A stretch of DNA of 33,221 bases, taken from positions 1-33,221 of the forward strand of contig JAJYLC010000020.1 of the NCBI GenBank assembly GCA_021787935.1. The letters are read 5' to 3'. The notes under the pieces are model-generated. The model saw only the letters and a program-made list of their open reading frames with translations, made no database searches and was not told the DNA's origin. The DNA is from Chloroflexota bacterium (GTDB lineage Bacteria > Chloroflexota > Dehalococcoidia > SZUA-161). Each line of letters begins with the position of its first letter. The stretch's first letter is position 1. A program made the position numbers and the translations under genes. Positions 2,165 through 16,299 of this stretch are shown here, in pieces.

Positions 2165-3001
2165 TTAGAAGCAGACGATGTTGCAGTCTCGGCAGACTTC
2201 GCACTCCGCTCCCCTGCCCTCTTTGTGCATGGCGGCATAACGCTGGCGCTCATCGGATTGCCACACCTCGGCGACAGTTTCATGGTTTAAGTCGCCGAAA
2301 ATCTTTCTGCCCAGCGGGTCCATACAGCAAAGGTTGACTTTGCCGTCCCAGAGCACAGTCATGTGGCTGGTGGCATGTATGCAGTAGGTGAAGCGGGTCT
2401 GGTCTTTTTGATAAGTGAGCCCGCCGAAATTCAGGTGCTGGAAGACGTAAGGCGTACGGCAGGATGCATTAGAAGTTGCCTTGCCCCACCTGCGATTGAA
2501 GGCTTTCTCTTCTTCCTTGGTGATGGAGGTATGCTGTACCAGCGATACGCTGTGGGAAATGTGAAGCGAATCAATGTAATCTATCATCCCGGCGACATGT
2601 TCGTAGTCATCCAGGCCTGTCAGTCTCTTCCTGGTCTCCACCGAGGCCCCGTTTGCCGAGATGTTGAGATGGAAATCAGGCACTTTCGCCAGCCTTCTGA
2701 TTATCTCCTCGGTCAGCTTACTGCCGTTGGTATAAAGATGAATCTCGGTTTTGGGCAGAGCAGCGCGTGCCTCCTCTATACGCTCAACCATCTGCGGGTC
2801 AAGGAAAGGCTCTCCTGTGAGCATGGGAATAAAGGTTTTAGGCGGCGGGTTGAGCTTAGCGGCATCCTTCAAAATTTTGGTGTAAAGCTGTTCCGACATG
2901 GTGCCATGATTTTTAATCTGCTCATAGGCGCAGAATATGCAGCGAGCGTTGCAGTAGTTCGTTGTCTCAACCTGAAGCACTTCTAGTGTTTGCTTACTCA
3001 A
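2165..3001 (-). CDS. Radical SAM/SPASM protein
   Basis: A 278-residue radical SAM enzyme. The CxxxCxxC cluster motif is C17-C21-C24, followed by a GEP motif (LTGEP) near residues 62-66. The C-terminal part has C207, C225-C226 and the CxxCxxC run C267, C270, C273 plus C277, the layout of a SPASM domain binding auxiliary iron-sulfur clusters. Related proteins modify peptides, sugars or cofactors; the substrate is not apparent here. The start is TTG at 3001, eight bases after AAAGGA, which lies inside the end of the methyltransferase gene. The four-base gap implies translational coupling. It is the last gene of the minus-strand run, so it probably acts with the methyltransferase, toroid protein and epimerase. 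Confidence 0.85.
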   Translation of the reverse strand: MSKQTLEVLQVETTNYCNARCIFCAYEQIKNHGTMSEQLYTKILKDAAKLNPPPKTFIPMLTGEPFLDPQMVERIEEARAALPKTEIHLYTNGSKLTEEIIRRLAKVPDFHLNISANGASVETRKRLTGLDDYEHVAGMIDYIDSLHISHSVSLVQHTSITKEEEKAFNRRWGKATSNASCRTPYVFQHLNFGGLTYQKDQTRFTYCIHATSHMTVLWDGKVNLCCMDPLGRKIFGDLNHETVAEVWQSDERQRYAAMHKEGRGAECEVCRDCNIVCF

Positions 3002-3005
3002 CTTG

Positions 3006-3638
3006 TTAATCCTTTTTCCTGGTTAGAATAACGATATGCTTCTGTTTAATCTCGTGGACTTCGCTTATCTCATTTTTATGTTTGTCCACTAAACCGTCTA
3101 TAGTCTCCGTAACCTCCGGCAGGTCGAAATTGTAGTCGTGAAAACCGACGCTGCCTCCCGGGACAAGGTTACGCCAGATGAGATTGAAGTCATTTATCAC
3201 ATAGTCAGGCTGGTGATTGCCATCGATGAAGCCGAAGGCAAACTTCTGCCCTTTATAGAAGCTGACTTTTTTGGAATCCATGTCGATGGTCACAATGTTG
3301 TCGAATGTATGGATAGCTTGCTGGTAGACCTCCAACTGGGAGCGACCCTGGAGAAACGCCTCGTAGATATCGCACATTTTCACCCCATTTTTGTCTGGCG
3401 TCTTATCGCAGTGAGGGTCGAAAATGTCGATGGCATACACCTTTTTCCCGCATTTCTGCCCGAATCTTGCCAGCTTGGCGGTGCCGCCGCCCATAAAGGC
3501 GCCGATTTCGACGATGTCCCCTTCGAGTTTGTTCAAGCCTCGCTTCTTCATAAAGTCAATCAGAACCTCGTAGCCCACGAAGTCATTACCTTCAACTTCT
3601 GCCGTGAGTTTTTGGGAAACTTTTTTAGAACCAGGCAT
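3006..3638 (-). CDS. Class I SAM-dependent methyltransferase
   Basis: A 210-residue Rossmann-fold methyltransferase. Motif I reads VEIGAFMGGGTAKLA (about 43-57), with an acidic residue at D71 (YAIDIFD) that would contact SAM. D139 (FIDGNH), D150 and H167-D168 (FHDYN) resemble the metal-binding pattern of the Methyltransf_24 / TylF-MycE group, which O-methylate sugars or phenols with a divalent metal. The ATG at 3638 has AAGGAAG four bases upstream. It lies 10 bases downstream of the toroid gene and four upstream of the radical SAM gene. The acceptor is unknown; sugar or lipid O-methylation is an inference from the neighbouring epimerase. Confidence 0.82.
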   Translation of the reverse strand: MPGSKKVSQKLTAEVEGNDFVGYEVLIDFMKKRGLNKLEGDIVEIGAFMGGGTAKLARFGQKCGKKVYAIDIFDPHCDKTPDKNGVKMCDIYEAFLQGRSQLEVYQQAIHTFDNIVTIDMDSKKVSFYKGQKFAFGFIDGNHQPDYVINDFNLIWRNLVPGGSVGFHDYNFDLPEVTETIDGLVDKHKNEISEVHEIKQKHIVILTRKKD

Positions 3639-3648
3639 TGAACTTCCT

Positions 3649-4680
3649 TCAGACTTTAGACAGTGCTGCGACAGCCAATATCAATGCTGCCGATGTCCAG
3701 GTTGCTCTCTCATCGTCAGGCGGGCAGGCTACCCTTTCGGGGAACTTTATCCCACGGCAGAAGCCGGGCTTATCGTCTCGAAGCTTCAGAGTCCAATCGA
3801 GCAGCATACTTGCCCTCTCATGCTCGCCAATAAGCGCCAGCGCTATAATCAGCTCGGAGGTCTCGGCTACCGCGGTGGTATCCTCGTCGACGGCTACCCT
3901 GCATCCCCAGTTTTCGATAATAAAATCGCTCCACTCTCTATCTATGCGTTCTTTTGCCGCTTTGCCGTTGAGCGCCCCCGTGAGCACAGGGTAGAACCAG
4001 TTCATGGCGTAGCGCCGCTTGTTCTCACCCATTTTGTCGAATAACTCGGGATGCTCTCTTATCGCCTTCAGCAGTTTGCTACTTGCCTCTTTCCAACCAT
4101 TTTTCGCCTTTCCCAGCGTTTTTGCAATGTTTACGCCATTGTTAATGCTGTGCCAGATGCAGCTTGAAGAAGTCAGTATAGCTCCTGGCCATGATGCCCC
4201 CGCCGGGCTTACTGCCCAGAAGACTTCGCCGGTGGGCTGCTGCAGGCTCAAGGCGAAATCTATCGCCTTTTCCACCATAGGCCATGTCTTTCGCAGAAAG
4301 CCTGCATCTCTGGTCGCCAGGTAGTGAAACCACAAGCCGGTCGCTATGTATGCGGCGAAGTTGGCATCCCTGGTCCGGTCGTCCTGCTTCACCTGAGGGT
4401 AGCTGGAGTACCAGCTCCCGTCTGGATTCTGCGTTTCGTATGACCAATTGTAGGCCTTCACGGCCTCATCGAATCTGTCAGCGATGTCCAGAGCGATAGC
4501 ACATTCCACATGGTCCCACGGGTCTGTGATAGCACCCCGATACCACGGTATAGCTCCTGAGGGAAGCTGCTGGCTGATAATGAAGTCGGCCTGGTGCTGG
4601 ACCAGCTTCTGAAGGTCAACGCGTGTCAATTTGGGTCGAAGCTCCCTTGCTTCGGATAGGGTATCAAACAGCGAAAGCAT
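3649..4680 (-). CDS. Alpha-toroid (prenyltransferase/terpene cyclase-like) protein
   Basis: A 343-residue, mainly helical protein with repeated helix-turn units containing QxxxGxxxW-like words, such as QLPSGAIPW (residues about 39-47), QNPDGSWYSSY and QQPTGEVFW. This is the pattern of alpha/alpha-toroid proteins annotated as prenyltransferase or squalene-oxidase repeat proteins. The DxDD catalytic motif of squalene cyclases was not found, so cyclase activity is doubtful; a sugar-hydrolase-like or binding role is equally possible. I used ATG 4680; a TTG at 4689 in the same frame is an alternative, and neither has a clear ribosome site. It sits between the epimerase and the methyltransferase with gaps of about 20 and 10 bases. 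Confidence 0.75.
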   Translation of the reverse strand: MLSLFDTLSEARELRPKLTRVDLQKLVQHQADFIISQQLPSGAIPWYRGAITDPWDHVECAIALDIADRFDEAVKAYNWSYETQNPDGSWYSSYPQVKQDDRTRDANFAAYIATGLWFHYLATRDAGFLRKTWPMVEKAIDFALSLQQPTGEVFWAVSPAGASWPGAILTSSSCIWHSINNGVNIAKTLGKAKNGWKEASSKLLKAIREHPELFDKMGENKRRYAMNWFYPVLTGALNGKAAKERIDREWSDFIIENWGCRVAVDEDTTAVAETSELIIALALIGEHERASMLLDWTLKLRDDKPGFCRGIKFPERVACPPDDERATWTSAALILAVAALSKV

Positions 4681-4700
4681 TGTCAACAAAAGGCTGATAG

Positions 4701-5657
4701 CTACATAAACGCGACGACTACTTTCCCGAATACCGGCGAGACGAAGTAGCGCATGAAGGGCAGAAACAGGCTAGAGTACCGCCTGTTCAAGCCCTTAGCA
4801 TAGTCTCCGAGATAATCAGCAAACGTCTTCTCCTGGTAGTTCAGAAGCTCCTGTGACTTGGTAGTGTCGTACCAGTCCAGGTAATAGGGTTCCTCGGTGA
4901 ATTTCTCGGCTGCAGGCAGAGGCAGCCCCATAACGCCCATGATATTTCCCACCATATCGCGGTACAGCATCCTTTGCTCGGGCCCGCCGCTAATGACCAG
5001 TGTGTTTCCCTTTATAGACTCGAAGCTCTTGACAGCGTTGAGTACCGCTGTGGCCAGGTCATCGGGGTGGCAGAACTCTACGCGGTTATTCAGCGGGACG
5101 GTGAACATGCGCTTGAGGTCGCTCACTTCAAAGTCAAAGTACATGACCGAGGTCAGGCGCAGGATTAGATAATCAATTCCCGATTCCTTGATCAGATTTT
5201 CAGCTTTGAGCTTGGTTTGTCCATAGTTATCTTTGGGATGAGGGACGCACTTATCCACGCAAAGGGGCTCTTTAACTCCGGGGGTGGGACCGAATACAGC
5301 TACCGAAGAAGTGAATACGAACGGGATGTGCCGGTCCTTCTCTTTTATCAGGTCAATTAGCGTTTTAGTTCCTCCGACATTGACTTTGGCGCATAGCTCG
5401 GGCTTCTCGTCCGCTAGAGGAGGGAGAATGCCAGCCATATGTACTACTGCGTCTACCTTTTCCAGCGCCTTCCTCACTAAGTCTGGCTTTGTGATGTCTC
5501 CCCAAACGATCTCAGCTTTACCCCCAAGTCTCTCGACGCTCTCCCGGTTGCGAGGGGTGTCCAGATCGAACACTCGAACCTGAAATCCGTCATTTAAGAA
5601 GTTTTTGCATACGTTTATTCCCAAACGCCCTGCTCCGCCTGTTACCAGCACACGCAC
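4701..5657 (-). CDS. NAD-dependent epimerase/dehydratase family protein
   Basis: An extended short-chain dehydrogenase/reductase of 318 residues. The nucleotide-binding motif is VTGGAGRLGINV (GxxGxxG, residues 5-16), DLD follows strand 2, and the catalytic set is visible as FTSSVAVFG with the YGQTK (YxxxK) pair near residue 145. Relatives interconvert nucleotide sugars or act on steroid- or terpenoid-like alcohols. The C-terminal 30 residues are hydrophobic, which is unusual and suggests membrane contact. The start is GTG at 5657 with AGGGAGG six bases upstream; an overlapping ATG at 5663 is out of frame. It is the first of four tightly spaced genes and lies 51 bases after the hydrolase gene. 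Confidence 0.87.
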   Translation of the reverse strand: MRVLVTGGAGRLGINVCKNFLNDGFQVRVFDLDTPRNRESVERLGGKAEIVWGDITKPDLVRKALEKVDAVVHMAGILPPLADEKPELCAKVNVGGTKTLIDLIKEKDRHIPFVFTSSVAVFGPTPGVKEPLCVDKCVPHPKDNYGQTKLKAENLIKESGIDYLILRLTSVMYFDFEVSDLKRMFTVPLNNRVEFCHPDDLATAVLNAVKSFESIKGNTLVISGGPEQRMLYRDMVGNIMGVMGLPLPAAEKFTEEPYYLDWYDTTKSQELLNYQEKTFADYLGDYAKGLNRRYSSLFLPFMRYFVSPVFGKVVVAFM

Positions 5658-5708
5658 TCCATACCTCCCTGTTCTCGTTTTGAGTTTCTTTTCAATTTTA
5701 TTTCGTTT

Positions 5709-7289
5709 TTACGATCCATCTGTACTGAGTCCAAGCTGAGGCTTGTTCGCCAGAGTCCTCTCACGCACCGGGGAGCCTGCATCCAAGGGTTCGGTTACTA
5801 TTGTTGATTGTCCTCTGTGAATCTGGGCTGTCACATATCTGCCCCGGGCATAATAAATTCGAACTTCGCCCTCTTCGTCCGGGCGTAAACGCACTGTGAA
5901 AATGTGCGCACCGGTCTCGGTTTTAGCGCCCTGAGAAAAGACCCTGAAGCCCCAGTACCTGCGCCCTGTCTTGGGCACGACGACGTAGGGATAGACTATC
6001 CTCCAGCGAGTTTTTTCCTTTAGCGCGAAGGTGAGAAAGAAGTGGACATTGTAGTCTTTTGGTTCTTCTGTAGGTCTCAAATGGCTGATACTAGCTATAC
6101 CGCCGCGCAGAAAGCTGCTGATAAGCTGGAACACCTCGTCGCCCTTGTCTTTGATCTGATTAATGTTCAAATGCGACCTGTTCACAGCGACAAAGTAAAG
6201 GTTCTGGAAAACCGTGCCATCGGAATTGAACTTGGCCAGGCTGGTCGAGCTCATCTCTACCATACCATCCGTCTGGCCACGAGCGTGACCACCGATGGCA
6301 GCGAACTCCGGTACATCAGAATCAGCCCTTGTATTCAAATCCCAGAGAAACCTGCTGTCCGGTCTCAATTCTGCTCCCGCTCTGGGGATGAGTTTGTCGG
6401 GCCATCTGAGACTGAATGGCTCAAATCGCAATGTCCCCAAGTGTGGTGTGGCCAGAGTGAGCAGCTTGGCGACCCTTGATTTACCTCCCGTGGCAACATA
6501 CTGGCGGGCTACTATCCCTCCCATGGAATAAGCTACGATAGAGCACAGGCTATTGCCGGTGAGTTCGCCGATCTTATTTATCGCCTTACCAAGTCTCAAG
6601 GCATATTTTGATGCCGAGCCCAAGGTGCCCCTGGCACTGTCTGAGTACTCAAACTGCCATACATTGTACTGGTCATCTTTTGTCTGCAGCAGGTCATCAA
6701 GTTTGGTAAATTGCTCCTCGCATCTGGTTGGCCTGGTAAAGCCCGGGAACTTGAACCCGTGCACCAGGACAACATTCTCCCTGCTGAACACCGGTCCTTT
6801 ATGCCAGAGTCTCCAGGAGTAATCATCGGGCCCGTAGTTGAGCATCCGATAGTCAACCTCGATGTTTTGATTGCTGGACGGACATGGGACATCTTGTTTG
6901 TTCCCTTCTACAGTGTCCCAGATGCCCCATTTTCCGTTGATTGGGTTGAAGCACTCTCCTTTCGAAGGTAGAGAAACCTTGAGGGCATAATATCTTCCTG
7001 CAGGGACAGACAGCGCATACTCACCTTTTTCATTTGTGTGAGCTACCGTCATGATTTTATTCCCCAGCCATGCAGTCACAATTGCCCCCGGTATGCCGAC
7101 ATCTGTTCTGGCATCATACACTCCAGTGCCATTTTCATCCTTGTAGATAGTCCCTGAGATCTGCGCTGTTGATTTGATTGCAGGGGTAGATTGGTATAGT
7201 TCGTCAGCGCTCTCTTGACGGGTTGCTGTCCGACCGATATTAGCGAAAAGATGTTGCCATTTCATTGTAACTTTCTGCGGTTTCTCCAT
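5709..7289 (-). CDS. Alpha/beta-hydrolase (lipase-like) with N-terminal SdrD/CnaB-like domain
   Basis: A 526-residue protein. Residues about 43-107 (ISGTIYKDENGTGVYD to AGRYYALKV) form a beta-sandwich of the SdrD B / CnaB / carboxypeptidase-regulatory type, a fold common in exported proteins. A lipase-like alpha/beta-hydrolase domain follows, with VVLVHGFKFPG (oxyanion loop) and the nucleophile elbow AYSMGG, serine near 255, and LATPHLGT as in PGAP1 or class 2 lipases. The rest is an unassigned beta-rich tail. I see no signal peptide, which is odd for such an architecture. I chose ATG 7289 with GAGG nine bases upstream; an in-frame TTG at 7304 would overlap the MarR stop but lacks a ribosome site. 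It directly follows the MarR gene, so MarR control is likely. Confidence 0.82.
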   Translation of the reverse strand: MEKPQKVTMKWQHLFANIGRTATRQESADELYQSTPAIKSTAQISGTIYKDENGTGVYDARTDVGIPGAIVTAWLGNKIMTVAHTNEKGEYALSVPAGRYYALKVSLPSKGECFNPINGKWGIWDTVEGNKQDVPCPSSNQNIEVDYRMLNYGPDDYSWRLWHKGPVFSRENVVLVHGFKFPGFTRPTRCEEQFTKLDDLLQTKDDQYNVWQFEYSDSARGTLGSASKYALRLGKAINKIGELTGNSLCSIVAYSMGGIVARQYVATGGKSRVAKLLTLATPHLGTLRFEPFSLRWPDKLIPRAGAELRPDSRFLWDLNTRADSDVPEFAAIGGHARGQTDGMVEMSSTSLAKFNSDGTVFQNLYFVAVNRSHLNINQIKDKGDEVFQLISSFLRGGIASISHLRPTEEPKDYNVHFFLTFALKEKTRWRIVYPYVVVPKTGRRYWGFRVFSQGAKTETGAHIFTVRLRPDEEGEVRIYYARGRYVTAQIHRGQSTIVTEPLDAGSPVRERTLANKPQLGLSTDGS

Positions 7290-7300
7290 GATGCTTAACC

Positions 7301-7768
7301 TCAACTGTCTTGTGAATCCCGTCTTGCTGCCTCGCCTGCCTTCAGCAGTGCCTCAAGTGCCTCAATGATCAATTGTAGTTGTGCAGGAGGCGCCGCCTGC
7401 AGCAGTTCTTTAGTGCGGTCGCGGGCCAACTGCCACAGCGCATCTATCATCTTCTGACCCTTTTCCGATAGACGGCAGAGGACTACCCGTCTGTCCTCAA
7501 CCTGGCTTTCTCTCAGCACAATGTCGCGTTCTACCAGTCTGTCTACCACTCCAGTCGCTGTAGCCAGGCTCACCCCGAGTGCGGAGGCGATATCGCTCAT
7601 CCGTGTCGGCCCGTTCAGGAAAAGGAGCAGGACAACCTTAAGCTGCGGCATAGTCAGGTCCAACTGAAGCCACTCTGTGGGCAATATCGGAATGAGTTCG
7701 CGAAATGCCTTTTCTCCGAGTTCGAGGATGTTTTCAATGAGTTCTTCCTGTTTTGGCCCCTGCTTCAT
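7301..7768 (-). CDS. MarR-family transcriptional regulator
   Basis: A 155-residue winged-helix regulator. LDLTMPQLKVVLLLF, then MSDIASALGVSLATATGVVDRLVERDIV (the helix-turn-helix and recognition helix) and RESQVEDRRVVLCRLSEKGQKM (the beta-wing with DRR and the following helix) are the classic MarR pattern. Such proteins are usually dimeric repressors that release DNA on binding a small phenolic or lipophilic ligand. I start it at 7768, where AGGAGG lies six bases upstream; the frame extends to an ATG at 7807 that lacks a ribosome site. It is first in its run, directly behind a promoter overlaid by palindromes, which suggests autoregulation together with the downstream hydrolase and probably the sugar- or lipid-modifying genes. 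Confidence 0.92.
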   Translation of the reverse strand: MKQGPKQEELIENILELGEKAFRELIPILPTEWLQLDLTMPQLKVVLLLFLNGPTRMSDIASALGVSLATATGVVDRLVERDIVLRESQVEDRRVVLCRLSEKGQKMIDALWQLARDRTKELLQAAPPAQLQLIIEALEALLKAGEAARRDSQDS

Positions 7769-7844
7769 CTGAAGCCTCCTGTCCGGCTTCTGTTTAAGCG
7801 TGTACATACAAATTTCCGTATCTTTAGTAAGGTCAGCGCATTAT

Positions 7845-7878
7845 ATTAGTATAACACTAATCATTTATATTATACTAA
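7845..7878. promoter_or_regulatory. Candidate MarR operators (overlapping palindromes)
   Basis: Two nested symmetries are visible. A 17-bp element at 7845-7861 has perfect six-base arms, ATTAGT and ACTAAT. A wider inverted repeat has nine-base arms TTAGTATAA (7846-7854) and TTATACTAA (7870-7878). They cover the -10 element and start point of the minus-strand promoter, where a repressor would block transcription. Size and position fit MarR sites; binding is inferred. Confidence 0.65.
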
Positions 7879-7897
7879 GTAAATTCCCTCGTGTCAA
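7869..7897 (-). promoter_or_regulatory. Perfect-consensus sigma70-type promoter of the MarR operon
   Basis: On the minus strand TTGACA (plus 7892-7897) and TATAAT (plus 7869-7874) are separated by exactly 17 bases. Both hexamers match the consensus fully, which is rare. The predicted start is near 7862, giving a leader of about 95 bases to the marR start. An unrepressed promoter of this quality would be very strong, in keeping with tight repression through the overlapping palindromes. Confidence 0.8.
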
Positions 7898-8745: not shown

Positions 8746-9666
8746 ATGTTTGGCCTTTTTAAGAAGACTGAAAAAGGGGTAAAACGCAGCCGGGAGGCCT
8801 GGTGGGGCAAGGTTGCGCATCTTTTCGACCGACCCACATTTGGCGACGAGCTTTGGGATGAGCTCGAGGAGCTTCTTATCTCTGCCGATGTTGGCGTGAA
8901 CACAACCGGCAAGCTAATTGAGCGGCTTAAGCAGAGGGTGGAAAGAGAAAAGATCAAGGAGGCTTCCCTGGCAAGGACTGCTCTGAAAGAGGAAATAGTT
9001 TCCATGCTGATGGTGAGAGATGGAAAGCCTTTGCCATCCACGGACGGAAAAATAGGCGTGGTTCTCGTGGTGGGGGTCAACGGGGTGGGCAAGACCACCA
9101 GCATCGCCAAGCTTGCCTATAGCTACAAAGAGCAAAAGAAACGGGTGCTTTTGGTGGCTGGCGACACCTTTAGGGCAGCAGCTATAGACCAGCTTAAGGT
9201 GTGGGGCGAACGAATAAAGGTTCCCGTGATCGCTCATCAGCCTGGCGGCGACCCCGCCGCAGTGGTCTTCGATGCCCTGGAGTCAGCGAAGAAAAATGCC
9301 GATATGGTTATAGTTGATACCGCAGGCCGTCTCCATACGAAGTTCAACCTCATGGAGGAGCTAAAGAAAATCAGGCGGGTAGTCGATAAAGCCAGTATCG
9401 AACCCCAGGTACTGCTGGTGCTGGATGCTACCACGGGGCAGAACGGGTTGACCCAGGCCAGATACTTTACCGAAGCTGTAAAGGTCAGCGGCATTCTGCT
9501 GGCGAAGCTGGATAGCACGGCAAAGGGGGGGATTGTCCTCGCCATCTGTGATGAGCTCAAGATACCCATCCTTTACATAGGCACCGGCCAGGAGCTGGAA
9601 GATTTCGCTCCCTTCGATCCTGAAGAGTTCGTAGAGGCTCTATTTTCCCGCGAGGACCAGGCTTGA
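8746..9666 (+). CDS. ftsY: Signal recognition particle receptor FtsY
   Basis: FtsY is the membrane-associated GTPase that receives ribosome-SRP complexes for co-translational insertion of membrane proteins. The 306-residue protein has the four-helix N domain (residues about 15-90) and the NG GTPase domain: G1 VNGVGKTT at 111-118, DTFRAAA, DTAGR (G3), TKLDSTAKGG-like G4 (AKLDSTAKGG), and GTGQELEDFAPFD at the C-terminal end. The long acidic A domain of E. coli FtsY is absent, as in many Gram-positive and Chloroflexota proteins. ATG 8746 has GGGAGGCTGAGA upstream. It overlaps the next gene by three bases (TTGA), so the following GT-C-like gene is translationally coupled. Confidence 0.96.
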   Translation: MFGLFKKTEKGVKRSREAWWGKVAHLFDRPTFGDELWDELEELLISADVGVNTTGKLIERLKQRVEREKIKEASLARTALKEEIVSMLMVRDGKPLPSTDGKIGVVLVVGVNGVGKTTSIAKLAYSYKEQKKRVLLVAGDTFRAAAIDQLKVWGERIKVPVIAHQPGGDPAAVVFDALESAKKNADMVIVDTAGRLHTKFNLMEELKKIRRVVDKASIEPQVLLVLDATTGQNGLTQARYFTEAVKVSGILLAKLDSTAKGGIVLAICDELKIPILYIGTGQELEDFAPFDPEEFVEALFSREDQA

Positions 9667-10856
9667 GCCAAACTGCAGTCATACTCCGGCAAAAAGCACT
9701 TCCCAATAAATGGTTTCAGGCAGCCTGCATAGCCGCTCTGGTCTTCGTCATCTACCTTGTCACCAGCCAGGATTCGACCCCTTATAACCAGTTTGTCCGG
9801 CTGGTCGATGCCTTTTTTCACGGGCGCCTTTACCTGATAAATGCGCCTTCCTGGTTGGAGTTGGCCAGATATGGTGACAGGGGATATGTCATCAATCCGC
9901 CTGCCCCCACCCTGTTCCTGATACCCTGGGTCGCCATCTGGGGACTGAGCACGAATCAGGTCATTGTTTCCATGCTGGTAGGCTCCGTAGCTGTGGGTTT
10001 CTTCTGGATAGCCGTCACGCAACTGGGCTGGAGTCTCCGGTTTAAGATAGCTATGACTGTGCTGGTAGCCTTTGGCACGAACTTCTGGTGGGTCACCACC
10101 ACAGGCAGTGTCTGGATGCTGGCCCATGTATCGGCGGTATTCTTCCTCATGGCTGCGCTGATCGAGACCACAAGCAAGAACCGCCCCTGGCTGGTAGCTT
10201 TGCTCGTGGGACTGGCCGGTTTATCCAGGTTGCCCGTCTTTCTTACCTTCCCTTTCTTTGCTTATATGTCGGTCCGGAGAGAGGATGGCCGGCGGGTTAT
10301 CATTCGCCGCCTGGCGATTTTTGCAGGCGTCTTAGCAGTGATGGGTGGGCTGTATCTGCTCTATACCTACGGTGAATATCATGCTTTCAGCCTTGGCTAC
10401 GAGCGCGGCCAGTTTGTTAACGAACCCTCGTTCTCCAACGGTCTTTTCAGCATAAGATACATACCCCGGCAGCTTAATGCAATTCTCTTCCAGGGGCCAG
10501 TATTTAGCGACAGCTACCCGTTCTTCAAGCCCTCTTGGGTGGGGATGGGGCTGTTTTTCACCACCCCGGCTTTGCTCTATATGTTCAACTCCACTCTGAA
10601 GGACAAGCTGGCACTTGCTGCTCTCGGCGGCATTGTCCTGACTGTAATCCCCAGTCTGACCTACGGAGTGACAGGTTTCCTCCAGTTCGGGTATCGCTTC
10701 AGCCTGGATATCCTGCCGTTTATGGTTATACTGGTGGCATCCGGCATGCGCTATCGATTGAATTGGCTCAAGATAGCAATCATTGTCTTGAGCGTGGGAA
10801 TCAATCTCTGGGGCACACTGGCTTTCAATAAGCTGAATTGGGTAGCTGGCCCATAA
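9663..10856 (+). CDS. Polytopic membrane protein, GT-C glycosyltransferase-like
   Basis: A 397-residue membrane protein with about ten hydrophobic helices. After the first helix comes a long extracytoplasmic loop (QDSTPYNQFVRLVDAFFHGRLYL) and then VINPPAPTLFLIPWVAIWG, like the PP-containing motif after the first loop in GT-C lipid-linked sugar transferases. The expected acidic pair in loop 1 is not clear, so enzyme activity is inferred from overall shape only. The start is TTG at 9663, inside the ftsY stop (TTGA overlap), which implies coupling. The two following genes are also large multi-pass proteins of this superfamily, so the three probably serve cell-surface glycan assembly. Confidence 0.72.
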   Translation: MSQTAVILRQKALPNKWFQAACIAALVFVIYLVTSQDSTPYNQFVRLVDAFFHGRLYLINAPSWLELARYGDRGYVINPPAPTLFLIPWVAIWGLSTNQVIVSMLVGSVAVGFFWIAVTQLGWSLRFKIAMTVLVAFGTNFWWVTTTGSVWMLAHVSAVFFLMAALIETTSKNRPWLVALLVGLAGLSRLPVFLTFPFFAYMSVRREDGRRVIIRRLAIFAGVLAVMGGLYLLYTYGEYHAFSLGYERGQFVNEPSFSNGLFSIRYIPRQLNAILFQGPVFSDSYPFFKPSWVGMGLFFTTPALLYMFNSTLKDKLALAALGGIVLTVIPSLTYGVTGFLQFGYRFSLDILPFMVILVASGMRYRLNWLKIAIIVLSVGINLWGTLAFNKLNWVAGP

Positions 10857-10934
10857 TGCCGTTTTAGCCAAGTCTTGTTTTACAGATTCGCAGCCTTTGA
10901 CTGAGGCATATCCGCTGTACAAGGACTTTGCCAG

Positions 10935-13100
10935 ATGATACAGGTAGCATATGCTATTATCTGGTGGCTTATCCTGTTGGTCATCGGCCTGATAACATTC
11001 CCTCTCGTATCCAGGGTATGTGGCAGGCTGCCGGACAAAGGCTACTCCATCTCCAAAATTTTGGGTCTGCTGGTTCTAACATACTTCTCCTGGCTATTTG
11101 CCAGCCTGCACCTGCTCAAATTCGGGTATCTCAACATCTCTATCGCGCTGGTTTTACTGCTGGCGCTCTCCTTCTATCTGGGCAGAAAGCGTCTGAATCT
11201 CAGAAACCTGCCTTTGAAGTCTATGCTTATCAGCGAGGCGATTTTCACTATCGCCTTCGCGCTGTTTTTGGTCTATTTGAGGTATAAGCCGGATATCTTC
11301 TACGCCTACACGGAAGATTTCATGGACTTTGCCTTTCTCCAGTCGATTCTGCGCGGCGGCTATCTCCCTCCTGCCGACCCCTGGCTTGCCGGCGCAAGCC
11401 TGCCCTATTACTATGGCGGCCAGTTAGTCACTGCCATACTTACCATGATATCGAAGGTGCCGTCCTCCATATCTTATAACCTGGCAGTGGCCATGTTTTT
11501 TGGCCTTATCGCAACTGCCTCCTATGGGATCGGGTACAATGTCACAAAGAGAAGATTTTATGGTTTTGTCGCTCTCCTTTTCGTTTGTATAGCGGGGTTT
11601 ATCTCGGGTGTATTTCAGCTCTCTGCCTTCGTCTTTCACCACAACCTGCTGGGCTACAGCGCCACAGGAGCGCATAGCTTCCTGGACTGGCTCTTGAACT
11701 TCAGTGTAAGCGCCGGAGTCATACCTTATACCGGGAACCTGTACCCTTATGCCGCTTTCTTGCAGGGGGAACTACATGCACATACTGTGAGTATTGCCTT
11801 TCAGCTAATGTACATCACGCTTGTTTTCGCTCTGCTTAAAAAGGACAATAGCGACGTCAAAACTGCTAGGTCGGATTCGCTACTGAGTGTGTTCATATTA
11901 GGGATTAGCCTGGGCTTCTTATCTCTGGTCAACACATGGGATTTCCCCATCTATGCCACATTTACCATACTTGCTTTCATACTGCTAAAACTGAATCTGA
12001 GTAAGAAGAGTATTTTAGGTGTCATAGCATTAAGCCTGATACTCTACCTGCCTTACTTTGTCACAAGGAACTGGGGCGGGGCACACGGACTCGGCATAGT
12101 ACATGACAGAACAGAGCTGGCAGATTTTATTGAGCTTTTCGCCCTGTTTTTATTTGTGACCTTCTCATTCTTTTACGTTTTGTTCAAGGGCCGATCGCTC
12201 AAGTGGAAAACACTCATTCTAGTGGCGGTCTTCGTCATAATCGTGGCCTCGGTCTCCTTCTTATTGAATTTTCAGCTTCTATTAATCCTTATCCCTCTGA
12301 TTTTGATACCCTTATACTGCATATATAAAGCACGTGAGAAAAAAGAGACCGAGTTTGTTCTACTTCTTGTGCTCATGGGCTCGCTAATTGCGTTATTCTG
12401 TGAAATCTTCTATATAGCCGACGCACTGTCTCATCCTTTTGAAAGATTCAACACTGTTATGAAATTCTATCTGCCGGTGTGGGTTTTCCTGGGTTTGGCA
12501 TCCGCGTACGGAGTATTCTGGATCATGAAGAATACCAGAGGGAAGCTTAAGGGCATTTGGTTCGCTATTTTGCTGGTCATTGTTTTGGCCTGCCTAATTC
12601 AACCTGTGGGGCAGACCATAGGGTGGGCCAGCGGCACACGCGATTATCTGGATATCGGCAGGGGGACATTAGATGGCGTAGCTTATGTGAAGACTATTGC
12701 GCCAGGTGATTACGAGGCTATCCAGTGGATTAACGGGCATATAAAAGGACAGCCTGTGATATTGGAGGCGCCCGGACAGGCGTATCAATTTTCATCATAT
12801 GTCTCAACGATGACCGGCCTTCCTACCGTTATCGGCTGGGTAACTCATGAGGTGATGTGGCGGGGTTCCTGGGATAAAGTAGCGGGGCGAGATACAGATG
12901 TAGATTATATTTATAAATCTCCGGATAGTGCTGAGGCTCTTGATTTGCTGAGGAAGTATAATGTCGAATATGTATATATCGGCAAAGCGGAAAAAGAGAG
13001 ATATGCGGCGGAAAGCTTGCTGCAGTTCGCCAGCGATTCGGAAAGATATAAGCTGATTTATGAAAAGGATGGTGTCGCCGTTTATCAGGTAGTGCAATGA
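10935..13100 (+). CDS. DUF2298 (Chlor_Arch_YYY) membrane protein
   Basis: A 721-residue protein with many membrane helices. The hallmark LPYYYGGQ lies near residue 157, within a segment (FMDFAFLQSILRGGYLPPADPWLAGAS) matching the DUF2298 / Chlor_Arch_YYY family known from Chloroflexota and Archaea. The family is thought to be GT-C-like and to act on surface glycans, but no reaction is established. The C-terminal extracytoplasmic part (after about residue 550) contains YEAIQWINGHIKGQPVILEAPGQAY and LLRKYNVEYVYIGKAEKERY, a small alpha/beta domain seen at the end of such proteins. ATG 10935 has AAGGA eight bases upstream. The gap from the previous gene is 78 bases, so shared transcription is plausible. 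Confidence 0.88.
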   Translation: MIQVAYAIIWWLILLVIGLITFPLVSRVCGRLPDKGYSISKILGLLVLTYFSWLFASLHLLKFGYLNISIALVLLLALSFYLGRKRLNLRNLPLKSMLISEAIFTIAFALFLVYLRYKPDIFYAYTEDFMDFAFLQSILRGGYLPPADPWLAGASLPYYYGGQLVTAILTMISKVPSSISYNLAVAMFFGLIATASYGIGYNVTKRRFYGFVALLFVCIAGFISGVFQLSAFVFHHNLLGYSATGAHSFLDWLLNFSVSAGVIPYTGNLYPYAAFLQGELHAHTVSIAFQLMYITLVFALLKKDNSDVKTARSDSLLSVFILGISLGFLSLVNTWDFPIYATFTILAFILLKLNLSKKSILGVIALSLILYLPYFVTRNWGGAHGLGIVHDRTELADFIELFALFLFVTFSFFYVLFKGRSLKWKTLILVAVFVIIVASVSFLLNFQLLLILIPLILIPLYCIYKAREKKETEFVLLLVLMGSLIALFCEIFYIADALSHPFERFNTVMKFYLPVWVFLGLASAYGVFWIMKNTRGKLKGIWFAILLVIVLACLIQPVGQTIGWASGTRDYLDIGRGTLDGVAYVKTIAPGDYEAIQWINGHIKGQPVILEAPGQAYQFSSYVSTMTGLPTVIGWVTHEVMWRGSWDKVAGRDTDVDYIYKSPDSAEALDLLRKYNVEYVYIGKAEKERYAAESLLQFASDSERYKLIYEKDGVAVYQVVQ

Positions 13101-13170
13101 GGTCGTTTGGCAATAAGTCTACCATATATCCGGATACCTTCACCGTAATTTTGAAGCTGGGTTTTCTGGG

Positions 13171-13189
13171 TTCCGTGTCAAGCACGGAA
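13171..13189. repeat. Small palindrome between the DUF2298 and double GT-C genes
   Basis: TTCCGTG and CACGGAA enclose a five-base loop. The surrounding text (GGGTTCCGTGTCAAGC and a later CGTGCAATGACGG) resembles fragments of the dispersed repeats at 19095-19690. There is no U-tract, so a terminator role is weak. Confidence 0.45.
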
Positions 13190-13326
13190 TGGTAATTGTG
13201 TTTCTAAACGCCCTCGTGCAATGACGGTTGCTTCATTTATGGTATTTGTGAGACAATGGAGCGACATTGTTATTCAGCAATGGCAGGGAGTCGATAAAAA
13301 CTCATAGGGGATTCTGGTAAATAGGG

Positions 13327-16299
13327 ATGCAAATTAATTTCTTAGAAAGACTGCAAAAATTCGTCTCCAAGCCCGGCGGCCAGGCTTTTTTGGTTGTACT
13401 CACCCTTGCAGTATCCTTGCTCATCCGGATACTCCTGTTTCACTATCATGGCTACTACATAGACGAAAACTCTTTCAAGTCATGGTATAACACCGCCGCC
13501 GACAAAGGGCTATATGGCTTCTACGGTTCCACCTGGTCTGATTACCCTCCGTTTAATATCTACATCTTCTGGATATTCGGCAAGCTGGCTCATGCCCTAG
13601 GGCCAGGCAGTTTATATTTTCTAATTAAACTTCCCCAAAACCTGTTCGACCTCGCCACAGCCTATCTTATCTTCCGCTTCGTTCGACAAAGGTACTCTTA
13701 TCTCTTCGCCCTGGGCGCTATGGCTGTGTATGCCCTCAATCCTGCAACCATCTTCAACCTTGCTGTGTGGGGCCAGTTCGATTCGGTCTACACCTTCTTC
13801 ATGGTTGCCTCGCTTTATTCAGTATTGCGCTCCAAATACGAGCTTTCCAGCGGCCTGTTTGCCCTGGCCATACTCACTAAGCCTCAGAGCGTCGTTCTTC
13901 TGCCGGTCTTGGCTTACCTCATGCTGAGAAACGGAGGCTGGAAGCGAGCTGCATCCAGCACTGTTGTATTCTTCGTTTTGATTTTCCTGGTTATCTTGCC
14001 GTTCCACTGGAGCAACCCCATAACATTTCTCGTTGACCGCTACAGCGGCTACAATCTGTACCCATATAACAGCCTCAATGCCTATAATTTCTGGGCGCTG
14101 CTGGGATTCTGGAAGACAGACACCGTGCCGCACCTGGGCCTGAGCTACCAGCAATGGGGCATTATCGCCTTTGTCATCTTCGCTGCCTTTGTCATCTGGC
14201 AGTTCCTTCGTAAGCCCGGCGGAAGGGCGCCGGTTTACGCCACCTTTCTTCTGGCCTTCGGGTTTTATATGCTGATGACCCGAATGCACGAGCGATATCT
14301 CTTCCCCGTCTTCGCGCTTCTAGCCCTCAACTTTTCCCCGCGTCATTCCCCCTGGCTTTATCTGGGGCTCACGGCTACGTTTTTTGCCAACCTTGTTTAC
14401 GTAATGTCAGTGCTCAATAAAAACTCTTTCATCCCCGACGGGCACTGGTCTATTTACGTTTTGGTTCCCATCAATGCTATACTGTTCTTCTACGCTATAT
14501 GGAGTTTCTGGAAGATGCAACATACTCAACAGCCGGAAGGAGGAGCGCCCGAAATTCCTCCAGGGCCGCTGGAAAGCGTGCCGCCTGAAGAAGAATCGAA
14601 GGAAGTTACTCCCCACTCGACGAAGCCCGAAGCAGCCTGGGAGGAGCCTTCATCTCCTGTTCCTAAAGTACCCATTCCCTGGAAGCATGCCCTCATCCTG
14701 GTGCTTCTCATCGCCATCTTCCTCGGCCTGTCTCTCTGGAATCTGGGAGACAGAAAGATTCCCAGTTCGAATTGGGTTCCTCAAAAGAACCCTGAGGAAG
14801 TCTATCTCGACCTCGGCACAACGACCCTTGTGGAAAAGGTATATCTGCTGGTTCAGGATGCCAATCCCGTCAACGTTGATCTCTACTGGGGATCGCCGGG
14901 GAACTGGACTTATAAGGGCAACCTGAGTGAATCGGGCGTCTGGGTGAAGTGGGACTCACTGTATCTGAATCAGGAGACCAGGTACGTCCGCCTGGTTTTT
15001 AAGGATACGTCCGGAGCAATCGGGGAAGTAGCCCTGTTCACCGACGGCCACAAATTAAATATAAAGGGTATAGTAGGAGACCAGGACAACACAGTATCGG
15101 CTCTCATTGATGAGCAGCAACTGGTCGGCAATCCTGCCAGCCACACATCGGGCACCTATTGGGATGAAATATACTACGTCAGGACTGCCGAACAGACCCT
15201 CAAGCTCGAAAGTCCTTCCCAGTGGGATCATCCTCCGACAAGCAAGCTTATTATGGCTGCCAGCATAGCCGTTTTCGGTCACGACCCGTTCGGCTGGCGA
15301 ATAAGTGGAGTCATCTTCGCCGCCCTCGGGATACTGCTGATCTACTTCTTCGCCAAGCGCGTATTTAAGTCTTCCTGGGCGGGACTTATCGCTGCCTTCC
15401 TGCTCACTTTTGAGTTTATGCATTTCGTGGAGGCGCGGATTGCTGTGCCCGAGACGTATGTCTTTTTCTTTATTATCGCCATGTTCTATTTCTTCTACCG
15501 CTACTGGGAAGACCCTGCCCGTGGCGGCAAGTACCTTTTCCTGAGCCTTGTGTTCTTCGGGCTGGGGTTCTCTACTAAGTGGACTGTTATGTATGGGTTT
15601 GCGGGCATGGTGCTGCTGCTGATTGTGCTCAAGTGGCGCAAGCCGGTAATTCGTAAAGGCGAAGTTCTCTGGTTCATTGGCGGTGTGGCAGCCGCGGTAG
15701 CTATCTATATGCTGTCTTACACAACGTACTTTCTGGCGGGCCACGGCGCCCATGACTGGTGGCACCTGCAATTCGCTATGTACGACTTCCATGCCCATTT
15801 GAAAGCAACTCATCCGGCCAGTTCCCCCTTCTGGAGTTGGCCCTTGATGCTGCGTCCGGTATGGATGTATCTGGGCAACTTCGACGGCAGCACAGGCTAT
15901 ATCTCCACTCTGGGTAATCCCGCGCTGTGGTGGGCAGGAATACCCGCGATACTCGGCACATTCTGGCTCGCGATAAGGTACAGAAACAAGCTCGCTATTT
16001 TCATTTCTATACCCTTCCTGGTTCAGTGGCTCGCCTTTCTCAGCGTTCACCGCGTGATATTCATCTATCACTTTTTCCCCAACGTGCTGTTTGTGATCCT
16101 TGCGGTCATTCTCTGGATTCAGTGGCTATGGAAGAAGTATACTTGGGGCAAATGGGTGGTAGTGGCTTACCTTGTGCTCAATGTCGTTCTCTTTGGCCTG
16201 TTCTTCCCCGTGCTATCAGGTCATCCCATGAGCCAGGGGTACTGGGATTCGATGAGGTGGATGGTGAACTGGGTCACGGCGGGTGTTGGGCCTCACTGA
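13327..16299 (+). CDS. Double GT-C membrane protein: mannosyltransferase-like half, discoidin-like insert, PMT-like half
   Basis: A 990-residue protein that reads as two GT-C enzymes in one chain. Half 1 (residues 1 to about 395) has IDEN at D46-E47 in the first loop, SDYPPFNIYI and about ten helices. A proline- and glutamate-rich linker follows (about 400-450). A helix starts at 454 and leads to a beta-rich segment (about 480-579, SSNWVPQ to LNIKG) like a discoidin/F5-8 carbohydrate-binding domain. Half 2 then has the PMT-type acidic pair D613-E614 in YWDEIYYVR, HPPTSKLIMA, and FVEARIAVPE, the pattern of dolichyl-phosphate-mannose protein mannosyltransferases. ATG 13327 has a weak ribosome site. 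Transfer of lipid-linked sugars to exported proteins or glycans is the likely role; donor and acceptor are unknown. Confidence 0.82.
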   Translation: MQINFLERLQKFVSKPGGQAFLVVLTLAVSLLIRILLFHYHGYYIDENSFKSWYNTAADKGLYGFYGSTWSDYPPFNIYIFWIFGKLAHALGPGSLYFLIKLPQNLFDLATAYLIFRFVRQRYSYLFALGAMAVYALNPATIFNLAVWGQFDSVYTFFMVASLYSVLRSKYELSSGLFALAILTKPQSVVLLPVLAYLMLRNGGWKRAASSTVVFFVLIFLVILPFHWSNPITFLVDRYSGYNLYPYNSLNAYNFWALLGFWKTDTVPHLGLSYQQWGIIAFVIFAAFVIWQFLRKPGGRAPVYATFLLAFGFYMLMTRMHERYLFPVFALLALNFSPRHSPWLYLGLTATFFANLVYVMSVLNKNSFIPDGHWSIYVLVPINAILFFYAIWSFWKMQHTQQPEGGAPEIPPGPLESVPPEEESKEVTPHSTKPEAAWEEPSSPVPKVPIPWKHALILVLLIAIFLGLSLWNLGDRKIPSSNWVPQKNPEEVYLDLGTTTLVEKVYLLVQDANPVNVDLYWGSPGNWTYKGNLSESGVWVKWDSLYLNQETRYVRLVFKDTSGAIGEVALFTDGHKLNIKGIVGDQDNTVSALIDEQQLVGNPASHTSGTYWDEIYYVRTAEQTLKLESPSQWDHPPTSKLIMAASIAVFGHDPFGWRISGVIFAALGILLIYFFAKRVFKSSWAGLIAAFLLTFEFMHFVEARIAVPETYVFFFIIAMFYFFYRYWEDPARGGKYLFLSLVFFGLGFSTKWTVMYGFAGMVLLLIVLKWRKPVIRKGEVLWFIGGVAAAVAIYMLSYTTYFLAGHGAHDWWHLQFAMYDFHAHLKATHPASSPFWSWPLMLRPVWMYLGNFDGSTGYISTLGNPALWWAGIPAILGTFWLAIRYRNKLAIFISIPFLVQWLAFLSVHRVIFIYHFFPNVLFVILAVILWIQWLWKKYTWGKWVVVAYLVLNVVLFGLFFPVLSGHPMSQGYWDSMRWMVNWVTAGVGPH

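Follow-up and report, generated by a model that had tools for sequence, protein, structure and literature searches.

A six-gene run in a Dehalococcoidia genome with predicted enzymes of a methylmannose polysaccharide-type pathway and a conserved radical SAM gene

The window, the whole stretch of DNA analyzed here, comprises the 33,221 nucleotides of contig JAJYLC010000020.1 (assembly GCA_021787935.1) of a Chloroflexota bacterium of the class Dehalococcoidia. The contig is C60 of this genome, a 2.68-Mb assembly in 169 contigs to which we refer as G000. Positions 2165-7807, flanked by rnhB and by the divergent rnc-ftsY, hold six minus-strand genes (Table 1). In the direction of transcription their Pfam assignments are MarR (PF01047, E 2.3e-14, the winged-helix domain of a regulator), alpha/beta hydrolase (DUF676/Lipase), NAD-epimerase, a weak GH-toroid match, Methyltransf_24, and Radical_SAM with SPASM, the last being the signature of a radical S-adenosylmethionine (SAM) enzyme. 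An earlier note on this DNA, made from the letters alone, had described six genes on one strand with gaps of at most about 50 bases, and this description holds: using the likely starts of marR (an ATG six bases 3' of an AGGAGG motif) and of the hydrolase, the gaps are 11, 51, 11, 10 and 4 bp. The subject of this report is the pathway to which these genes belong.

The protein that the earlier note called a toroid protein matches MmpH of Mycobacterium hassiacum (PDB 7QSJ) over residues 32-345 with an E-value of 9.6e-75. MmpH, an alpha-(1->4)-endomannosidase, cleaves 3-O-methylmannose polysaccharide (MMP), and the pieces serve as primers from which new chains are built (PMC9883506). All 11 of the residues named in that paper for catalysis and for the adjacent subsite, including the catalytic D47/D50 and E262, are identical in the window protein and in M. 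hassiacum, and the same residues are found throughout the window's family. When 29 homologues are aligned, no change is seen at W49, Y219, E262 or E265 and hardly any at D47 and W315; F102, T163, M215 and D50 are variable. The gene occurs in 42 of the 393 genomes of our class sample and in 12 of the 400 genomes of a phylum-wide sample, some of the latter from outside the class. In the MmpH tree the seven full-length sequences of the window's family group together with 100/100 support within Chloroflexota, and two actinobacterial sequences stand apart; among the named genomes of the collection the closest, a Dehalococcoidia metagenome-assembled genome, has an mmpH 86% identical to the window copy. 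A terpene or squalene cyclase was also considered for this protein and rejected, the matches to SQHop, GH95 and oligosaccharide-amylase families being weak, below cut-off and superseded by the match to 7QSJ.

The product of the gene that follows mmpH (METHYLTRANSFERASE, 210 amino acids) yielded a 25-sequence profile that matches one solved protein at E <= 0.01, namely MeT1 (6G7D, E 3.6e-7), the MMP 1-O-methyltransferase. Its structure model, a confident one (predicted local distance difference test score, pLDDT, 86), likewise has MeT1 as the top fold match, with the sugar O-methyltransferases SpnH and MycF close behind, at template modelling scores of about 0.6 that do not separate MeT1 from the other two. 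By fold, SpnH and MycF are thus nearly equal to MeT1 in their likeness to the window enzyme, whereas by sequence profile they go unmatched at E 0.01 and MeT1 is matched. From profile and model together, the protein is predicted to be a sugar O-methyltransferase of the MeT1 kind, a designation that implies no position specificity.

Many other mmpH-bearing Dehalococcoidia have a contiguous cluster consisting of a glycosyltransferase gene, a gene for a 240-amino-acid methyltransferase (MT240), mmpH and a meT1-like gene, and in one such cluster (L034) the glycosyltransferase matches ManT (7QSG) with an E-value of 5.3e-96. The locus tags of M. hassiacum (ManT 04402, pMeT3 04403, MmpH 04404 and MeT1 04405; PMC9883506) imply the order manT-pmeT3-mmpH-meT1, which matches that of the Dehalococcoidia. 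The window's family has the set divided between two places, manT-pmeT3 (MT240) at another locus and mmpH-meT1 in the gene run. In the window genome the first pair lies on contig C154 (5261-7204), where manT (5261-6484, 56% identical to the L034 ManT) adjoins MT240 (6491-7204, 49%); by homology these are predicted to encode ManT and a pMeT3-type methyltransferase. In a relative assembled as a single contig (G008) the manT-MT240 pair lies about 29 kb from mmpH. Further ManT-like genes are present in the window genome at C38:27156-28382 (52% to the L034 ManT) and C44:36166-37185 (47%), and two to three such genes also occur in several other members of the family. In another family (f15; L068, L087, L090-L093 and L095-L098) two tandem ManT-like genes are followed by mmpH with no adjacent meT1-like gene, and the five aligned f15 MmpH sequences have T at the position of D50. 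Our comparison with an actinobacterial cluster used one record, that of Nonomuraea (L155, NZ_LT559118.1), in which the manT and MT240 frames were located by tblastn. Homologues of all four enzymes lie there within 5 kb, with identities of 44% for ManT, 41.5% for the 240-amino-acid methyltransferase and 36% for MmpH, and with a weak MeT1-type match on the opposite strand. This record is chromosome-sized (11.85 Mb) yet listed as a plasmid, and its MMP-type cluster is unannotated.

We consider it probable that the gene run is the recycling and capping half of an MMP-type pathway, that is, one for an alpha-1,4-linked O-methylmannan, an estimate that covers the MMP-type assignment. We favor this reading because of the MmpH homology with its 11 of 11 residues, because MeT1 is the sole solved relative in the methyltransferase profile search, and because of the contiguous clusters in relatives and the genome's own manT-MT240 pair. 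In common with the mycobacterial MMP cluster (meT1, mmpH, pmeT3 and manT; PMC9883506), the window genome has homologues of all four enzymes and keeps the MmpH active site, and related Dehalococcoidia have the order manT-MT240-mmpH-methyltransferase implied for M. hassiacum. It differs in belonging to another phylum, in the distribution of the genes over two loci, in the addition of MarR, a short-chain dehydrogenase/reductase (SDR, the epimerase-family protein), the hydrolase and radical SAM, and in its extra ManT-like copies. Because the four genes are split we file the run as a pathway variant and not as the mycobacterial cluster, a distinction of arrangement and not of chemistry.

The conserved unit of the run is mmpH-meT1-radical SAM; the epimerase, hydrolase and marR genes are facultative. 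The three genes are kept together in 8 of the 9 genomes of the family, with mmpH of G002 present only as a fragment at a contig end. The epimerase-family SDR stands beside mmpH in the window, in G005 and in G008 (in the last with the hydrolase in between, as a partial reading frame), whereas G004 and G006 have it in a displaced position. Between mmpH and the hydrolase of the sister genome G001, which are separated by a 69-bp gap, there is no epimerase, and the best match is a relative of 57% identity elsewhere. The epimerase was therefore rejected as a core gene, and the four-gene core proposed in the earlier note (epimerase, toroid, methyltransferase and radical SAM) shrinks to three; the neighborhood is conserved in related genomes as far as this trio goes, and the six-gene run as a whole is not. 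The hydrolase is as patchy across the family as the epimerase, and marR was seen among the family genomes only in the window, G001 and G005. In G004 (C34; L061, 6001-12494) eight opposite-strand open reading frames separate mmpH from epimerase-hydrolase, an interruption which indicates that the run has been broken or assembled piecewise within the family. The three facultative genes may serve the pathway without defining it.

Clear orthologues of the radical SAM gene were found only in the window's family, in 8 of 9 genomes and each time adjoining the methyltransferase gene; matches beyond these are 25-31% identical. A second clade is 26-30% identical to the window's. Each of the five genomes that yielded it (L026, L030, L033, L034 and L066) has it beside mmpH-methyltransferase, and the class sample contains a single clear orthologue (68%), that of the L066 genome itself. 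Since two divergent clades both adjoin mmpH, a role of the radical SAM enzyme in the pathway is favored; a Fisher test of co-occurrence with mmpH (12 of 16 matches, p 6e-10) ignores phylogeny and carries little weight. Across 12 sequences the invariant cysteines are C17, C21 and C24 of the CX3CX2C motif, C207, C225, C270 and C273, which would bind an auxiliary cluster, and C226; C181, C267 and C277 vary, and the protein ends at the motif. The cysteine pattern thus predicts a twitch-type enzyme with ligands for one auxiliary cluster. A full two-cluster SPASM maturase was rejected, the extra C-terminal cysteines not being conserved, so that of the radical SAM/SPASM gene of the earlier note both Pfam domains stand and the full SPASM arrangement does not. 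The best profile match is BtrN (4M7T, E 1.1e-23, both domains), which oxidizes a cyclitol alcohol to a ketone, with its auxiliary cluster as the probable electron acceptor (PMC9012708). BtrN, an enzyme of butirosin biosynthesis, is also the best fold match and shares the CX3CX2C core motif and the four aligned auxiliary-cluster cysteines; it differs in its low overall identity and in belonging to an aminocyclitol antibiotic pathway, whereas the window enzyme stands in a glycan-pathway context. By analogy, the enzyme might carry out a radical oxidation of a glycan, at a mannosyl or methylmannosyl residue, a tentative proposal to which we give rather less than an even chance.

The promoter of the run agrees with the earlier note in being an exact TTGACA-N17-TATAAT. 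There are 13 exact copies of this pattern in the genome and 1 of a reversed control pattern, and for this reason we take it to be a real promoter signal; both hexamers are identical in G001, where the spacer has diverged. On the plus strand at 8019-7990, TTGACA-18-TATTAT (11 of 12 positions) is likely the divergent rnc promoter facing that of marR. The palindromes were said to overlie the promoter, which is true in part: the left arm of the wider 9-bp inverted repeat, kept with one mismatch in G001, covers the -10, and the 17-bp palindrome ATTAGTGTTATACTAAT sits just downstream of the -10, at about +1 to +17, and leaves both hexamers uncovered. Shuffling of the 80-bp region produces a dyad equal to ATTAGTGTTATACTAAT in 6.8% of cases, and the significance of the palindrome on its own was therefore rejected. 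In G001 the palindrome reads ATTAGCATTATGCTAAT, in which pair 6/12 has gone from T-A to C-G through a change in each arm and a mismatch has become a match; because this both-sided change made the dyad perfect, a real dyad is favored. The palindrome is not kept in G005, though a -35 and a -10-like hexamer are present there. MarR control of the run through this putative operator is plausible, its one support being the compensated palindrome of G001. As in MarR-family local autoregulators, marR is the first gene of the run and has a palindrome at its promoter; it differs from them in that the operator is kept no further than the sister genome and most family members have no marR.

Table 1. Genes and control elements of the run, in window coordinates
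Feature	Position	Strand	Basis or remark
Promoter TTGACA-N17-TATAAT, exact consensus	7869..7897	-	Pattern search; sister genome comparison
Putative MarR operator, 17-bp palindrome ATTAGTGTTATACTAAT	7845..7861	.	Compensated dyad in G001; lost in G005
Wider 9-bp inverted repeat, TTAGTATAA (7878-7870) / TTATACTAA (7854-7846)	7846..7878	.	Left arm over the -10
MarR-family regulator, 155 aa from ATG 7768 (longest ORF to 7807)	7301..7768	-	Pfam MarR; AGGAGG 7780-7775
Alpha/beta hydrolase, 526 aa from ATG 7289 (TTG 7304 also possible); facultative neighbor	5709..7289	-	SdrD_B-like N-terminal domain
Extended SDR, NAD-dependent epimerase/dehydratase family, 318 aa; facultative neighbor	4701..5657	-	Rossmann GGAGRLG; YGQTK catalytic motif
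Predicted MmpH-like alpha-(1->4)-endomannosidase ('toroid'), 346 aa	3649..4689	-	7QSJ match; 11/11 active-site residues
Predicted MeT1-like sugar O-methyltransferase, 210 aa	3006..3638	-	MeT1 6G7D the sole PDB profile match at E <= 0.01 and top fold match
Radical SAM/twitch-domain protein, BtrN-like, 278 aa; proposed oxidizing tailoring enzyme	2165..3001	-	Pfam Radical_SAM, SPASM; BtrN 4M7T profile match; invariant Cys

Downstream of ftsY, at 9663-16299, a membrane glycosylation neighborhood lies near the run and contains a 397-amino-acid protein with a weak glycosyltransferase match, a Chlor_Arch_YYY/DUF2298 membrane protein (721 amino acids, E 4e-169) and a PMT-like mannosyltransferase of 990 amino acids.

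Under the MMP-type reading, MmpH would break the mature O-methylmannan down into short primers. Those with a free reducing end would be capped by the MeT1-like enzyme, and ManT with the pMeT3-like enzyme from the other locus would lengthen and methylate the primers. The BtrN-like enzyme of the twitch type could abstract a hydrogen from a sugar carbon and hand the second electron on to the auxiliary 4Fe-4S cluster that it carries. The residue would thereby be left oxidized (keto), and a reductase, for which the adjacent SDR is one candidate, may reduce it in turn, possibly with inversion of the center. MarR, bound just 3' of the -10, would hold the operon silent in the absence of its ligand. 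The substrate identity, the radical oxidation, the part of the SDR and the control by MarR are in this scheme proposals that we infer. It is possible, though on our estimate rather unlikely, that some Dehalococcoidia make an oxidized (keto or epimerized) MMP through the action of a twitch radical SAM dehydrogenase on residues of the polymer. We know of no prior description of radical SAM tailoring of an O-methylated polysaccharide.

Several observations weigh against this reading. To our knowledge, no glycan is known from these uncultured organisms. The four MMP genes are not contiguous in the window genome (split between C60 and C154), and pMeT3 is only putative in mycobacteria, its comparison with MT240 being made only through Nonomuraea. 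The methyltransferase resembles MeT1 weakly, the fold match having about 18% identity, and SpnH and MycF are almost as close, so that the methylated position is not fixed. For the radical SAM enzyme, genes of the second clade run convergently to the cluster at four loci and hence do not share its operon, and the structure model is of low confidence, its BtrN fold match (17% identity) being supportive only. The distance from the mycobacterial enzymes (about 35-40% for MmpH, weak for the methyltransferase), the variation of several subsite residues among Chloroflexota MmpH homologues, the fold matches to SpnH and MycF, and the occurrence in some families of two ManT-like genes with no MT240 or methyltransferase neighbor would all suit an enzyme set that makes and recycles another O-methylated glycan by the same logic, with a different methyl position, sugar or linkage and hence a product other than MMP. 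However, the MmpH of the window's family keeps all 11 M. hassiacum residues and ManT is strongly conserved, and we regard another glycan as unlikely.

That the radical SAM enzyme is a maturase of a peptide (a ribosomally synthesized and post-translationally modified peptide, RiPP) or of a metalloenzyme, and a chance neighbor of mmpH, appears less probable again. Its NCBIfam matches are to maturases, for example that of a tungsten oxidoreductase, but all lie far below cut-off, the invariant cysteines suit a BtrN-like twitch protein with one auxiliary cluster, and the mmpH neighborhood is common to two divergent clades. The place of marR as first gene and the esterase-like hydrolase could point to a catabolic operon, in which MarR would respond to a ligand, mannan-derived or other, by inducing the breakdown of a scavenged glycan, the methyltransferase and radical SAM enzyme being incidental or detoxifying. 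We think this very improbable, given that the MmpH-like sequence has no signal peptide and the run no sugar transporter (both judged by eye), that mmpH lies inside a biosynthetic set in close relatives, and that most members are without MarR. We give the least credence to the proposal of the earlier note, an inducible pathway that uses all six genes for a glycolipid or small metabolite whose product was left unnamed. The lipase-like hydrolase and the single shared promoter agree with it, but neither the hydrolase nor the epimerase is conserved along with the other genes, and the homology of MmpH and MeT1 points to a polysaccharide. Of that proposal a regulated carbohydrate pathway is supported, and the product is narrowed by the same homology to an MMP-type polymer.

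MMP is documented in mycobacteria, with a related form in Streptomyces (PMC9883506), and its role, in the modulation of lipid synthesis or in growth in the cold, is unsettled. In the literature collection that we searched, and the statement extends to that collection only, no paper joining methylmannose with Chloroflexi was found. Our analysis suggests that an MMP-like polymer exists in a phylum distant from mycobacteria, and with a chemical twist. If this is true, the complete Dehalococcoidia clusters, whose gene order is apparently shared with the mycobacterial one, would extend the polymer to a second phylum and to hosts without mycobacterial envelopes, and its function would separate from mycolic-acid biology; the twitch enzyme that recurs beside mmpH would then be a testable new step of the pathway.

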